Source: Kallipyga gabonensis
GTDB taxonomy: Bacteria > Bacillota > Clostridia > Tissierellales > Peptoniphilaceae
Length of the DNA: 64,000 nucleotides
NCBI RefSeq assembly: GCF_001286805.1
Contig: NZ_CXYV01000002.1
Location: forward strand, 868,001-932,000
Direction: 5' to 3'
The translations under genes were made by a program, and so were the position numbers. This document shows, piece after piece, positions 8,340 through 59,458 of the stretch. The notes below the pieces were generated by a model. That model saw only the letters and a program-made list of their open reading frames with translations. It was not told where the DNA came from and did not search any database. Positions within the stretch are counted from its first letter, which is position 1. Every line of letters begins with the position of its first letter.

Positions 8340-8555
8340 ATGAATAATGTAGTAGGTCCCAGGATCAAATCATACATCGAAGGACATGGTATTTCTATTC
8401 GATTTCTATCCGAAAAAACAGGAATATCTATCCAAGCCCTCCGCCGAATTTTGAATGGAAAGAGTAAACTTGCTGCTGAAGTGTACTTTCTATTATGTCG
8501 AGAGTTAGACCTGCCGGTCAATTATTTTATGAGTCCGGATATTAAATCAAAATAA
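8340..8555 (+). CDS. Small Xre/Cro-type DNA-binding protein
   Basis: A 71-residue protein that is almost only a helix-turn-helix domain: IRFLSEKTGISIQALRRILNG is the turn region, followed by KSKLAAEVYFLLCRELDLP and a short tail. This is the size and pattern of a Cro-like or minimal phage-type regulator. The start ATG 8340 has GGAGTGAGAGG upstream. It is divergent from the larger Xre gene at 7826-8203, an arrangement typical of a two-repressor switch, but no phage or toxin genes accompany it. A terminator follows. Confidence 0.75.
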   Translation: MNNVVGPRIKSYIEGHGISIRFLSEKTGISIQALRRILNGKSKLAAEVYFLLCRELDLPVNYFMSPDIKSK

Positions 8556-8577
8556 GTGAATAATGAACGATGGATCA

Positions 8578-8608
8578 AGTCCCCTCAATATGAAGGGGCT
8601 TTTTTTAT
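8578..8608 (+). terminator. Terminator after the small Xre gene
   Basis: CCCCT (8581-8585) pairs with AGGGG (8594-8598), with a flanking AG/CT pair, followed by a run of seven to eight Ts. Confidence 0.75.
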
Positions 8609-8786
8609 TTCCAGAAGTGAGATTCTCATGGAACATATACCCCGGAAACCGGGATACGGAGGGGACCTTATTTCCTTATCATTAAAAGTGCCCAGCGATG
8701 TGTATTGACTGAGAATCCCCACTACCATTGAGAACTGATTCTATCTCTTTGCTTGGAAGCCGCTGAACATATGTACACATCAATAA
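8609..8786. other. Non-coding stretch upstream of the Tad operon leader
   Basis: No gene is supported here. CCCGG-AAA-CCGGG at 8641-8653 and TGAGA-T-TCTCA at 8617-8627 are short palindromes. TTGACT at 8705-8710 looks like a -35 box but has no acceptable -10 at 16-18 bases, so the promoter of the Tad operon was not located. Confidence 0.5.
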
Positions 8787-8878
8787 GCCACAAGGGGTTG
8801 TGGCAGGTTAGGACAAACCGGGTGCGGGCAACAACCGAGGGTCGTCCACCCTCGGTTCGAAAGGAGTGTGATAACACC
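8787..8878 (+). promoter_or_regulatory. Structured leader RNA of the Tad pilus operon
   Basis: Three stems stand in a row before cpaF: GCCACAA (8787-8793) with TTGTGGC (8798-8804); GGTT (8806-8809) with AACC (8816-8819); and a perfect 10-bp stem AACCGAGGGT (8833-8842) with its complement (8848-8857). GGAC in the second loop (8811-8814) is complementary to GTCC in the third loop (8844-8847), which would allow a kissing contact. The third stem ends three bases before AAAGGAG. GTGT/ACAC (8866-8877) lies between that site and the ATG. It does not match any riboswitch class I can recall. Confidence 0.5.
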
Positions 8879-10105
8879 ATGGGAGATGATCAAGAAAGGC
8901 GGGCTTTAGAGGATGTCATCAATAACCTTAGGGTTAAGGAAGATTTGACTGAAATTGATGATGGGCTTTTATTAGACCGGGTGGAACGTGCAATATTGAC
9001 CCACCCTTTTCTTTCTAAAGGAACTTTGGAGGAAAAGGCTCTCTGGATTGACCAGACCTATGCCAATATCCGAGGGTATGGGATTTTAGATTATTATTTG
9101 GAAAATCCAAAAATTACGGAGATTATGGTCAACACCTATGATGAAATATTTTATGAAAAGCATGGACAAATATATAGGGGAGAACGAATCTTTTCATCAA
9201 AGAAAAAATTACTTGATACGATACAAAAAATAGTTAGTGATAGCGGTAAAGAGGTTAATCGAAGAAAACCTATCTGCGATTGCCGGATGAAGGACGGATC
9301 CAGAGTTAATGTGGTGTTAGAACCCATTACTGCCCATTCTCCGGTTTTAACGATAAGACGATTTTCCGATTCCTATTATGGCTTGGAAGACCTGGTAACC
9401 AACCATACCCTGAGTCAGGAAGCGGCAGACTTTCTCTCCGCTTGTATAAAAGCAAAATCAAATATCTTTATTTCGGGATCAACAGGATCGGGTAAAACAA
9501 CCCTTCTTAATGCCTTGGCCGGCCAGATTCCGGTGGAGGAACGATTAATAACGATTGAAGATGCCAGAGAATTAAATTTTGGAAGCCGGAAAAACTGGAT
9601 CGCCCTTGAAGCCAGGTCACCGAGTATAAAGGGTCAAGGAGGTGTGGATATTCGAGATCTCATCCGGACATCCCTTCGGATGAGGCCGGATAGAATTATT
9701 GTCGGAGAGGTTCGTGGAAAGGAGGCAATAGATATGCTTCAAGCCATGAATACCGGGCATGACGGATCTCTTTCCACCGGTCATGCTAACTCGATTGAGG
9801 ATATGCAATTTCGCTTAGAAACCATGGTAATCGGGGGACACGAAGGACTTCCTTTACAGGCAATTCGCCAGCAGATTGGAGCGGCCATTGAAATCTTTGT
9901 CCACCTCTCTCGCATGCCGGACCATTCCCGGAAGCTGGTCGATATTAAAGAGCTGGTTATTGAAAATGGCCATCTCGTCTATCACAGCCTTTTTCATAAG
10001 TCCTGGAAAGATCCAATGGACAGTCCGGCAAAGTGGACCGGAACTTATCTGATGAGAAAGGATAAGTTTTTACGGGAAGGGGTAGTTACCCCTATTCTCG
10101 GATAG
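8879..10105 (+). CDS. cpaF: Tad pilus assembly ATPase CpaF/TadA
   Basis: A 408-residue secretion ATPase of the VirB11/CpaF group that powers assembly of Flp pilus subunits at the inner face of the membrane. After a helical N-terminal region come the Walker A box GSTGSGKTT, the Asp box [12 protein letters not shown], Walker B in [15 protein letters not shown] and the His box [10 protein letters not shown]. The start is ATG 8879; its ribosome site AAAGGAG is 12 bases away but a four-base-pair GTGT/ACAC hairpin between them would shorten that gap. The frame is open a further 42 codons upstream through the leader stems, which is rejected. It is the first gene of an eight-gene pilus operon, ten bases before tadB. 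Confidence 0.93.
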
Positions 10106-10114
10106 GAGGAGACC

Positions 10115-10912
10115 GTGAAAATAGAAACAAGAGATCAGAAGTATTATCCCCTTCCGAGATTTTATCAGCTATTCGCACTCAGTTTATCCGGTCTATTCTC
10201 ATGGATTTACTATCCTCGTTGGTGGTTTGTTCTTCCGGGAATGTTATTGGGGCTGCGTCAGATAAAAGCCTGGTGGAAGGAGAAGCAGGTTAGAGATCGG
10301 AATAAAGCGATGGAAGAGTCGCTCTTGTCTTTTTTCGAGCGTTTAATGAACTATTTAGATGCCGGCTATAATCCTTTGGAGTCCTGGGCCGGAGCAGGAC
10401 GTGCTCTTAAGGGGGAAAAAAGAGAAGGAGATAGTAAATATCAATCAATGCAAGAAAGAGATGGTCAAGAGAAAGTGACCGAAGAAGTTTTGGCTGTTAT
10501 TCGGAAGTATGAGGAAGGAAAAAGTTTGGAGGAAGCTTTGGAATATTTTAGCCAGGAGCTTTCCTCCCCTCTGGTTGAAAACTTTATCCGCCATTTCATC
10601 CTTGGAATACGACAGGGTGGTGATCTTGCCCAGTTGACTGAGAGTTTTTATCGCCTTCTTTTTGACCGTCAAGAACTCAACCGGGATCGGGAAACGAAAC
10701 TCTATGCAGCAAAAAGAGAACTGGTCATTCTTTTCATCATGCCTTTCGTATTATTGGCTTCCCTTCGCTATAGTGCTTTGGAACAAGGAGGGGAGGGGCT
10801 TTTTAATTTCATCATTCATCTCTTTTGCCTGGGTCTCTTTTATCTGGCTTGGCGGTGGGCAAAAGCGATCATCAACCGAACGGAGCTCAAGGAACAAACG
10901 AGGTCTTTATGA
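10115..10912 (+). CDS. tadB: Tad pilus membrane platform protein, TadB-like
   Basis: A 265-residue integral membrane protein of the type II secretion F / TadB family, forming half of the inner-membrane platform on which CpaF works. Two membrane helices near residues 15-50 are followed by a cytoplasmic four-helix domain (ESLLSFFERLMNYLDAGYNP, then SLEEALEYFSQEL and a GIRQGGDLAQL segment) and two C-terminal membrane helices. The start is GTG 10115 with GGAGGAG upstream. The stop codon overlaps the start of tadC as ATGA, indicating translational coupling. Confidence 0.82.
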   Translation: MKIETRDQKYYPLPRFYQLFALSLSGLFSWIYYPRWWFVLPGMLLGLRQIKAWWKEKQVRDRNKAMEESLLSFFERLMNYLDAGYNPLESWAGAGRALKGEKREGDSKYQSMQERDGQEKVTEEVLAVIRKYEEGKSLEEALEYFSQELSSPLVENFIRHFILGIRQGGDLAQLTESFYRLLFDRQELNRDRETKLYAAKRELVILFIMPFVLLASLRYSALEQGGEGLFNFIIHLFCLGLFYLAWRWAKAIINRTELKEQTRSL

Positions 10913-11754
10913 GTTTATTTTATTGCCGACAGATTCTTGCTTGGATATTTCTTATTGGATGGTTAATCCTTTACGGCAAGATGTCTTGTTCCCGGAAGAA
11001 CGGAAAGATGGGGGATCACAGCGGATATACATGTGGAGGAATAGGATATTTCCTTTTATCCCATCTTCCTGAGCCTATCAGGACCTATCGGTGGCCCTTA
11101 AAGAAGAATTTCCTGGTGATCATTGATGGTCAAGCTAAAGGGGAAGCAGCTCTTCTTTACAGAGAATGCAGAAAAATGCATGATCTTTATCTTCTAGCCG
11201 GATGGATTTCACCGTCCATTCTTTTTCCCTCTCTTTTTCCCCTTCTCCTTGCCCTTTCTATTGGTCGATGGTTTTATGAGGATCATTTCCTATCCAAAAA
11301 GGCAAAGGAAATCCAAGATGAGGTAATTCAAAGTCTTCCTGAGATGCTAAGCCGTCTCCTTCTCTCCATTCAAGCAGGTTCTCTTGTCCAAGATGCCTGG
11401 ACAGAAACCGGTTTATCCCAGGAAGGAATTTTATATGAAGAGATGAGGGAGCAGGCTGTCCTGGTCAAACAGGGTGTCAGCTTAACAGAAAGCTATCGCA
11501 GTTTTGGACGACATTTTCAGTTGCCTGTTCTGGGTGAGATCGGTCAGCTTATGGTTGAGGGACTTCATCTGGGAACCCAGCAACTGGTCAAAGAACTCGA
11601 AACCATACGTTCTCGTCAGGTCCAAGCGGTAAGGCGGAGGATGATGGAAGAGGCGGAACGTGCATCCCAACAAATGATATTTCCAAGTATCTTGCTATTT
11701 ATTGGGATCCTGATTTTGGTAATGGCTCCTATGTTGGCACAGGGACTGGTATAG
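10909..11754 (+). CDS. tadC: Tad pilus membrane platform protein, TadC-like
   Basis: A 281-residue partner of TadB and the second half of the platform. It has an N-terminal helix, two membrane segments around residues 85-120 (ILFPSLFPLLLALSIGRWF), the cytoplasmic domain with QSLPEMLSRLLLSIQAGSLV and VKQGVSLTESY, a basic RRRMMEEAERASQQM stretch and a C-terminal membrane helix (FIGILILVMAPML). That end is characteristic of TadC. The start ATG 10909 overlaps the tadB stop; a longer frame from 10825 lies entirely within tadB. Confidence 0.8.
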   Translation: MSLFYCRQILAWIFLIGWLILYGKMSCSRKNGKMGDHSGYTCGGIGYFLLSHLPEPIRTYRWPLKKNFLVIIDGQAKGEAALLYRECRKMHDLYLLAGWISPSILFPSLFPLLLALSIGRWFYEDHFLSKKAKEIQDEVIQSLPEMLSRLLLSIQAGSLVQDAWTETGLSQEGILYEEMREQAVLVKQGVSLTESYRSFGRHFQLPVLGEIGQLMVEGLHLGTQQLVKELETIRSRQVQAVRRRMMEEAERASQQMIFPSILLFIGILILVMAPMLAQGLV

Positions 11755-11769
11755 AAAGGTGGAAATAAT

Positions 11770-11982
11770 ATGCTTATACCGATGAAATTGAAATTTTTTG
11801 TGGGATATGAAAGAGAAAAATGGAAAAACATAATTCGTGAGGAAAGAGGAGAAGTCAATATGGTAGCGATCGTTCTCATCATCCTGGTCGTTATTGCCCT
11901 TATTGCCATTTTTAGGGATAACTTAACGCAACTGCTGGGAACTCTTTTTGAAAAAATTGAACAGGAAGCCCTAAATATCTGA
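11770..11982 (+). CDS. Flp1-like type IVb pilin (major pilus subunit)
   Basis: A 70-residue protein with a positively charged leader of about 28 residues, then EERGEVNMVAIVLIILVVIA, a Glu-containing motif running straight into a 20-residue hydrophobic helix, and a short amphipathic tail. This is the layout of Flp1-like pilins of Firmicutes, where a prepilin peptidase cuts before the hydrophobic helix. It is the only gene of this kind here and is therefore the likely pilus subunit. It has AAAGGTGG upstream of ATG 11770. Position after tadC and before tadE agrees with this call. Confidence 0.78.
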   Translation: MLIPMKLKFFVGYEREKWKNIIREERGEVNMVAIVLIILVVIALIAIFRDNLTQLLGTLFEKIEQEALNI

Positions 11983-37088: not shown

Positions 37089-37120
37089 TCTTTTCAAAAA
37101 GCAAGAAATGGTTAACTGTC

Positions 37121-37147
37121 TCAAAGTGTCCCAAAGCGTCCCAAAGT
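37121..37147. repeat. Three tandem 10-bp repeats upstream of the ArpU-like gene
   Basis: TCAAAGTGTC, CCAAAGCGTC and CCAAAGTATA start at 37121, 37131 and 37141, an exact ten-base period sharing the core CAAAG. One copy per helical turn suggests a protein-binding site. The surrounding 37090-37326 region is AT-rich and holds no gene; CCCTC/GGAGGG at 37272-37290 could form a small hairpin. Confidence 0.55.
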
Positions 37148-59362: not shown

Positions 59363-59369
59363 TACTTGA

Positions 59370-59458
59370 TGTGTAACCGCTCAGAAGAGGTTTTTCGTAA
59401 ATTGAGAAGTCTTTGTCTCAATACCTCCATTGGCGAGTCTAACAGAACGGAGAGAGAT
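59370..59458 (+). promoter_or_regulatory. L21 leader-type regulatory RNA
   Basis: The 90-base untranslated region between promoter and rplU can fold: ATTGAGA (59401-59407) with TCTCAAT (59416-59422) sits inside GAGGT (from 59387) with ACCTC (59423-59427). Firmicutes rplU operons carry a conserved L21 leader at this place. I see the fold and position but have not compared it with the covariance model. Confidence 0.5.

Follow-up and report, generated by a model that had tools for sequence, protein, structure and literature searches.

Structured leader RNAs ahead of pilus genes are known in Clostridia, where c-di-GMP-I and c-di-GMP-II riboswitches occupy such positions, and the ydaO c-di-AMP riboswitch is a leader RNA of Firmicutes whose size is similar to that of the leader treated here. 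Autoregulatory ribosomal-protein leaders are another well-known type; they are narrow in spread, tied to one operon, and structured. Docking between two loops is known in cobalamin riboswitches, in which it occludes the ribosome site, and in the env8 type the aptamer domain has a loop that kisses that of a hairpin at this site (both according to PMC10907184).

We analyzed a stretch of 64,000 nucleotides of the Kallipyga gabonensis genome (contig NZ_CXYV01000002.1; hereafter the window), in which a Tad pilus operon opens with cpaF; its mRNA probably starts as a folded leader RNA of about 180 nt, whose helices appear to be kept by paired mutations in relatives. A preliminary description, made from the window alone, had pointed out three consecutive stems in front of cpaF and proposed a possible new structured RNA switch. 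The features to which the text refers are as follows.

8340-8555, + strand: HTH gene for a small Cro/C1-type protein (Pfam HTH_3), directly upstream of the leader in genus g1
8581-8605, + strand: terminator-like hairpin (8581-8598) and T run after the HTH gene
8630-8656, + strand: two degenerate direct repeats, GGAACA (8630-8635) and GGGATA (8651-8656), 21 bp apart; putative regulator boxes 5' of the -10-like element
8677-8682, + strand: putative -10-like element TATCAT, chosen by eye
8687-8866, + strand: structured leader RNA, from the putative transcription start to the end of AAAGGAG
8689-8693, + strand: P0 5' strand TGCCC (hand alignment; double changes in 4 of 5 pairs)
8697-8704, + strand: P1 5' strand GATGTGTA, partner 8774-8781 (hand alignment, covariation)
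8705-8773, + strand: P1 interior domain of variable length; contains AATCCCCA at 8714-8721
8774-8781, + strand: P1 3' strand TACACATC (hand alignment, covariation)
8787-8804, + strand: hairpin I, GCCACA-AGGGGT-TGTGGC (stem 8787-8792/8799-8804); stem kept, loop not conserved
8806-8819, + strand: hairpin II, GGTT-AGGACA-AACC (stem 8806-8809/8816-8819); loop GGAC at 8811-8814
8826-8830, + strand: P0 3' strand GGGCA (hand alignment, covariation)
8833-8857, + strand: hairpin III, AACCGAGGG-TCGTCCA-CCCTCGGTT (stem 8833-8841/8849-8857); loop GTCC at 8844-8847
8860-8866, + strand: AAAGGAG, invariant in 10 of 10 leaders; 12 nt before ATG in the window
8879-10105, + strand: cpaF/tadA for a T2SSE ATPase, opening gene of the Tad operon (Pfam T2SSE, 5.8e-46)
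10115-11982, + strand: tadB-like gene (T2SSF), tadC-like gene (weak T2SSF, below the Pfam cut-off) and Flp1-like pilin gene (11770-11982)

When the CpaF protein was searched against the 130 genomes of the family, orthologs at E < 1e-100 were found in 12, and a recognizable leader lies directly 5' of cpaF in 10 of them, distributed over four genera of this one family: the window genome, G001 and G002 (genus g1), G036 (g35), G015 (g14), and G024, G085, G147, G148 and G149 (g23). G085 and G148 share one and the same leader sequence, so that nine leaders are distinct; these represent only about five independent lineages. The other two ortholog genomes, G005 and G031 (CpaF 47 and 51% identical), gave no model match (loci L010 and L008) and have no room for a leader, because only 35 and 50 nt separate the end of a long open frame from the CpaF match. 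The upstream neighbor differs between genomes, being the HTH gene in the window and, in the corresponding place of G036, a frame whose end we read as tuf-like, and therefore the leader goes with cpaF. Within genus g1 the leader is more conserved than the start of cpaF; its identity to the two congeners (8687-8866) is 0.91 and 0.87, whereas the 5' 212 bases of cpaF reach 0.64, and the values upstream are 0.79 and 0.81 for 8630-8686 and 0.40-0.48 for 8556-8629.

The spread was also examined with a covariance model, R2, built from the hand-made alignment A9 explained below, so that its own rows match by construction. Under strict filters and in genome sets that overlap, R2 gave one site per genome, in 9 of the 130 genomes of the family, in 9 of 249 at the level of the order and in 2 of 391 sampled from the class, and all these matches fall among the ten leader genomes, always at the cpaF of the Tad operon. 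The match in the window spans 8759-8866 only. G036, which was lost by the strict filters, was matched at 1.2e-4 in a scan of CpaF loci, in its 3' part only, and the other 14 loci of that scan gave no match at E up to 5. With the ten CpaF proteins as queries, at least 80 CpaF loci were listed that are more distant and belong to other bacteria (43-57% identity); three of them (L076, L099 and L126) have less than 120 nt upstream of the CpaF match, and the best E that R2 gave in this list was 0.16.

The fold of the leader is nested: P0 closes a junction that holds P1, hairpin I and hairpin II, and hairpin III stands outside it, after P0 and immediately 5' of the invariant AAAGGAG. All three stems of the preliminary description are present where it had placed them, as parts of a larger element (8687-8866) that starts upstream of the proposed 8787-8881 and includes P0 and P1, which had been missed together with the candidate promoter. 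Its perfect 10-bp stem three bases 5' of the ribosome site is hairpin III (8833-8841/8849-8857, 10 bp when T8842-A8848 is counted; AAGGAG at 8861-8866). A further GTGT/ACAC stem between the ribosome site and ATG does exist in the window (8866-8869/8874-8877), but it is not conserved, and both congeners have TGTGATCCGGACT after AAAGGAG in its place; the window sequence 3' of hairpin III reads CGAAAGGAG, followed by ATG at 8879.

Each helix can be followed through the lineages. P0 is TGCCC/GGGCA in g1 and TGCCC/GGGTA in G036; four g23 leaders have CAGCC/GGCTG, and 4 of the 5 pairs of P0 are formed in G149 and G015. P1 is GATGTGTA/TACACATC in g1, GATGTGT with ACACATC or GCACATC in g23, TGTTCGAAAG/CTTTCGGACA in G036 and CAATGTGT/ACACATTG in G015. 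The stem of hairpin I is kept at 4-6 bp; that of hairpin II appears as GGTT/AACC (AATC in G002), GGCG/CGCT, CTCGGC/GCTGAG, TCCGGC/GCCGGA, CTCGGC/GCCGGG and CGTGAT/ATTACG; and hairpin III has 6-9 bp and ends 1-2 bases 5' of AAAGGAG. Outside the named helices, the P1 interior carries the motif A(A/T)CCCCA or AACCCCCA in 9 of 10 leaders, and CCACCCA in G149.

The covariation that had been proposed as a check on the stems was assessed in A9, a block alignment of nine sequences made by hand, with the P1 interior removed, N padding, and cuts made to fit the helices, a manner of fitting that favors high counts. Over its 33 pairs, four of which are kissing pairs, 286 of 289 cells pair (99.0%) and both sides change in 24 pairs; the shuffled means are 74.7% and 12.7 pairs, and slid structures reach at most 44.5% and 6. 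The covariation score is 0.666 vs 0.192 for shuffled and at most 0.125 for slid controls. RNAalifold on the A9 columns returned the same five helices with a double change in 26 of 32 pairs, and on a plain MAFFT alignment (A4) it recovered only five P1 pairs and four others. The stems show double changes in relatives, as counted in a hand-made alignment of which a plain one recovers little.

Less biased evidence than these counts is the detection by R1, a covariance model built from four g23 leaders only and run with filters off over 41 kb. R1 matched the leaders of G015 (3.9e-10), G149 (1.7e-9), the window (9.7e-4), G002 (0.014) and G001 (0.015), and so reached two further genera and the divergent congener G149; in G036 its value, 0.12, was worse than those of chance matches (0.10 and 0.11), and in the window it misaligned the 5' half of the leader. 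A structure-blind HMM from the same training alignment found G015 at 3e-4 and missed G149, G036 and all of g1. The folding energy of 8740-8900 is ordinary (z -1.07; 32 of 200 shuffles as good), and the minimum-energy folds of leader plus gene start in the nine leaders contain P0 in four, P1 in six, hairpin I in six, hairpin II in seven and hairpin III in all nine. Since this segment alone is not unusually stable, the reality of the RNA rests on the comparison with relatives. Ordinary energy and the little consensus structure from the plain MAFFT alignment would suit chance stems in ordinary intergenic sequence, an explanation we consider highly improbable in the face of the double changes in 24 of 33 pairs, the detection by R1 across genera, and an identity above that of the coding region.

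The preliminary description also noted that GGAC in the loop of the second stem and GTCC in that of the third could kiss, and complementary loops are indeed found in all nine distinct leaders, as GGAC/GTCC in g1, G149 and G015, AGGACA/TGTCCT in G036, and GGGACG/CGTTCC, with one G-U, in the g23 leaders other than G149. In the hand alignment the GGAC/GTCC columns are invariant and only their flanks vary. We formulated this as a joint-pattern rule, fixed after seeing the sequences: a hairpin before AAAGGAG and an upstream hairpin with a kissing loop, within 90 nt 5' of AAAGGAG. All nine distinct leaders satisfy it; of 2000 shuffles each, 8 did so for the window and 5 to 65 across the nine. A stricter earlier rule without G-U pairs, likewise post hoc, passed six of nine leaders (three g23 leaders fail; shuffles 5 to 21 of 1000), and in four of these six the partner that came first was a different pair of loops. 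What sequence comparison shows is the five helices, through compensatory changes, the loop complementarity in nine distinct leaders, and the position in front of cpaF.

A search of Rfam for known families left the leader unmatched, both in the window at the gathering score and in nine homologous loci with E as high as 1; when the limit was raised to E 10 over 8500-8950, three weak matches to other families appeared, all ending by 8615. The leader differs from the c-di-GMP-I and -II riboswitches, the ydaO riboswitch and the cobalamin riboswitch in having no Rfam match to any of them; the preliminary description, too, had seen no match to the c-di-GMP-I, c-di-GMP-II or c-di-AMP patterns. The host genomes also lack a match to GGDEF (PF00990): none of the ten leader genomes (81-99% complete) has one, and 8 of 14 control genomes are positive. 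Therefore c-di-GMP, at which the preliminary description had hinted, is an unlikely signal. In the published literature searched, no Tad or cpaF leader RNA is described, although motif lists in supplements may hold one, and terms for such an RNA are absent from the main text of the RNA-discovery papers PMC8632094, PMC11109978, PMC6429828 and PMC8040213. Covarying homologs before cpaF in four genera, the kept kissing loops, and the lack of an Rfam match together support a new structured RNA ahead of the Tad operon. With compensatory helices in the 5' leader of one gene, on covariation counts from a hand-fitted alignment where a plain one shows little, the element is filed as a new narrow family among structured cis-regulatory leader RNAs.

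We assign a probability of roughly 0.6 to the reading that this is a new cis-acting leader RNA family controlling the Tad operon, most likely at translation initiation via kissing-loop docking. Transcription would start about 6 nt after the -10-like box, the 5' terminal bases would pair with GGGCA as P0, and P0 would close the junction of P1, hairpin I and hairpin II. The loop of hairpin III would then dock on that of hairpin II via a kissing helix of 4-6 bp beside the ribosome site, and a signal, either a metabolite or an RNA-binding protein recognized by the P1/junction domain, may shift the docking and thereby alter ribosome access to AAAGGAG. Given that AAAGGAG has no single conserved sequestering partner, docking is the step we would expect to be regulated, the analogy being with cobalamin riboswitches; the level and direction of control are presumed. 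Two other readings were rejected. A coding leader is suggested in the window by an in-frame TTG at 8753 that opens into cpaF, and in both congeners this frame meets a stop about 50 nt ahead of the match. A terminator or attenuator fails because the sole + strand terminator-like site lies upstream (8581-8598 and T run); since none lies within the leader, translation control is the likelier output. On the - strand hairpin I (8804-8787) scores as terminator-like, which we take as a by-product of the stem.

AAAGGAG stands 5-6 nt from the start codon (as assigned by us) in 6 of 10 leaders. In g1 the distance is 12-13 nt, and in G036, which has a further GGGAGG closer to the start, it is 23 nt; these larger distances indicate that the role of AAAGGAG as a ribosome site is not universal. 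We found no anti-ribosome-site pairing common to the leader set, and a single shared element of this kind was rejected because the candidates differ by lineage: the 5' side of P0 in G147, G015 and, weakly, G024; the end of the P1 interior with the 3' side of P1 in G036; and the P1 interior in the window. Of the proposed "new structured RNA switch," the new structured RNA is supported, through its covarying homologs, kissing loops and novelty to Rfam; "switch" is a conjecture, its ligand being hypothetical and no anti-Shine-Dalgarno pairing conserved across the set. This alternative pairing that is not conserved, an AAAGGAG that is for the most part unpaired in the ensemble (mean unpaired probability 0.53-0.98), and a P0 that begins at the putative first bases of the transcript would all fit a static stabilizer, in which P0 ties up the 5' end and the compact fold protects the long operon mRNA against 5' exonucleases without sensing any signal. 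Such a stabilizer has no need for a conserved kissing pair, a CCCCA motif or a multi-helix junction, and we regard it as unlikely.

The signal-dependent reading has two special cases. In one, a riboswitch proper, P1 and the junction would bind a metabolite and the kissing helix would be the output, as in cobalamin riboswitches. In the genomes searched this leader occurs once per genome, in front of one gene and within one family, unlike most metabolite riboswitches; it also has few conserved junction bases, and with no GGDEF protein found the obvious second messenger is unlikely. The A(A/T)CCCCA or AACCCCCA motif kept outside the named helices in 9 of 10 leaders speaks for it, and so does a junction with a docking hairpin beside the ribosome site, which resembles the interdomain-docking riboswitches that PMC10907184 describes. 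The likeness to env8 would lie in the pairing predicted from the complementary loops, with hairpin III beside the ribosome site; the difference is that PMC10907184 places the ribosome site of env8 in the terminal loop of a hairpin, whereas AAAGGAG is outside hairpin III. Overall, we think a riboswitch proper possible at rather low odds.

In the other case, a Tad operon product or another RNA-binding protein would adjust translation by autoregulation. Strict operon linkage and narrow spread are typical of autoregulatory leaders, and the present leader shows both, in the manner of ribosomal-protein leaders; it differs from these in that its operon makes a pilus and its binding protein is only hypothetical. 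GGA loops are a preference of CsrA; in no leader genome, of the ten, did CsrA score above the cut-off (its two weak matches fall within frames of 733 and 736 codons), and it is therefore unlikely. Among eight operon frames scanned, three of them without any Pfam match, no RNA-binding family was found, and the protein-binding case is also a tentative one. The window contains a known ribosomal-protein leader elsewhere (Rfam L21_leader, 59365-59450, 41.2 bits).

Considered as a whole, the leader is probably a new lineage-restricted cis-regulatory RNA of the Tad pilus operon, and we propose it as a signal-dependent control element. A conserved folded leader heading a pilus operon, in a host where no c-di-GMP synthase was detected, is a control point that is defined and can be tested. 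Should a small molecule prove to be what it senses, this would uncover a new surface-attachment signal; a new riboswitch class that sets pilus output by kissing-loop docking beside the ribosome site, in presumed anaerobes without c-di-GMP, is a doubtful but attractive prospect.

Upstream of the leader, the terminator-like hairpin after the HTH gene suggests that the leader probably has its own transcript. A hexamer TAnnAT occurs 5-7 nt before P0 in 10 of 10 homologous leaders, and TATCAT would be the promoter element, with transcription starting after it; a promoter scan reported no + strand promoter at this site (8677-8682). The degenerate repeats of the window correspond to exact GRGACA pairs with 21-bp spacing in six relatives and with 10-11 bp in G149. 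Over ten genomes, GRGACA at 21-bp spacing has 20 matches (six at the leader) vs 9 in a reversed-pattern control, and at 10-11 bp it has 29 (four at the G149 leader, L053) vs 8; some of these matches fall inside genes. The repeats are possibly a new operator for some regulator. A LytTR activator for the 21-bp boxes was rejected, because LytTR was found in only one of the ten genomes (G015). Several GRGACA pairs also stand before frames that we read as clpP, ribH, ispF, folB and radA (L147, L155, L146 and L185). Across the window, the 21-bp box pattern with one mismatch has one match elsewhere, against 1.4 expected, and at 37117-37142 there are two TGTCYC boxes and a third near-match, TGTCTCAAAGTGTCCCAAAGCGTCCC, about 10 bp apart.
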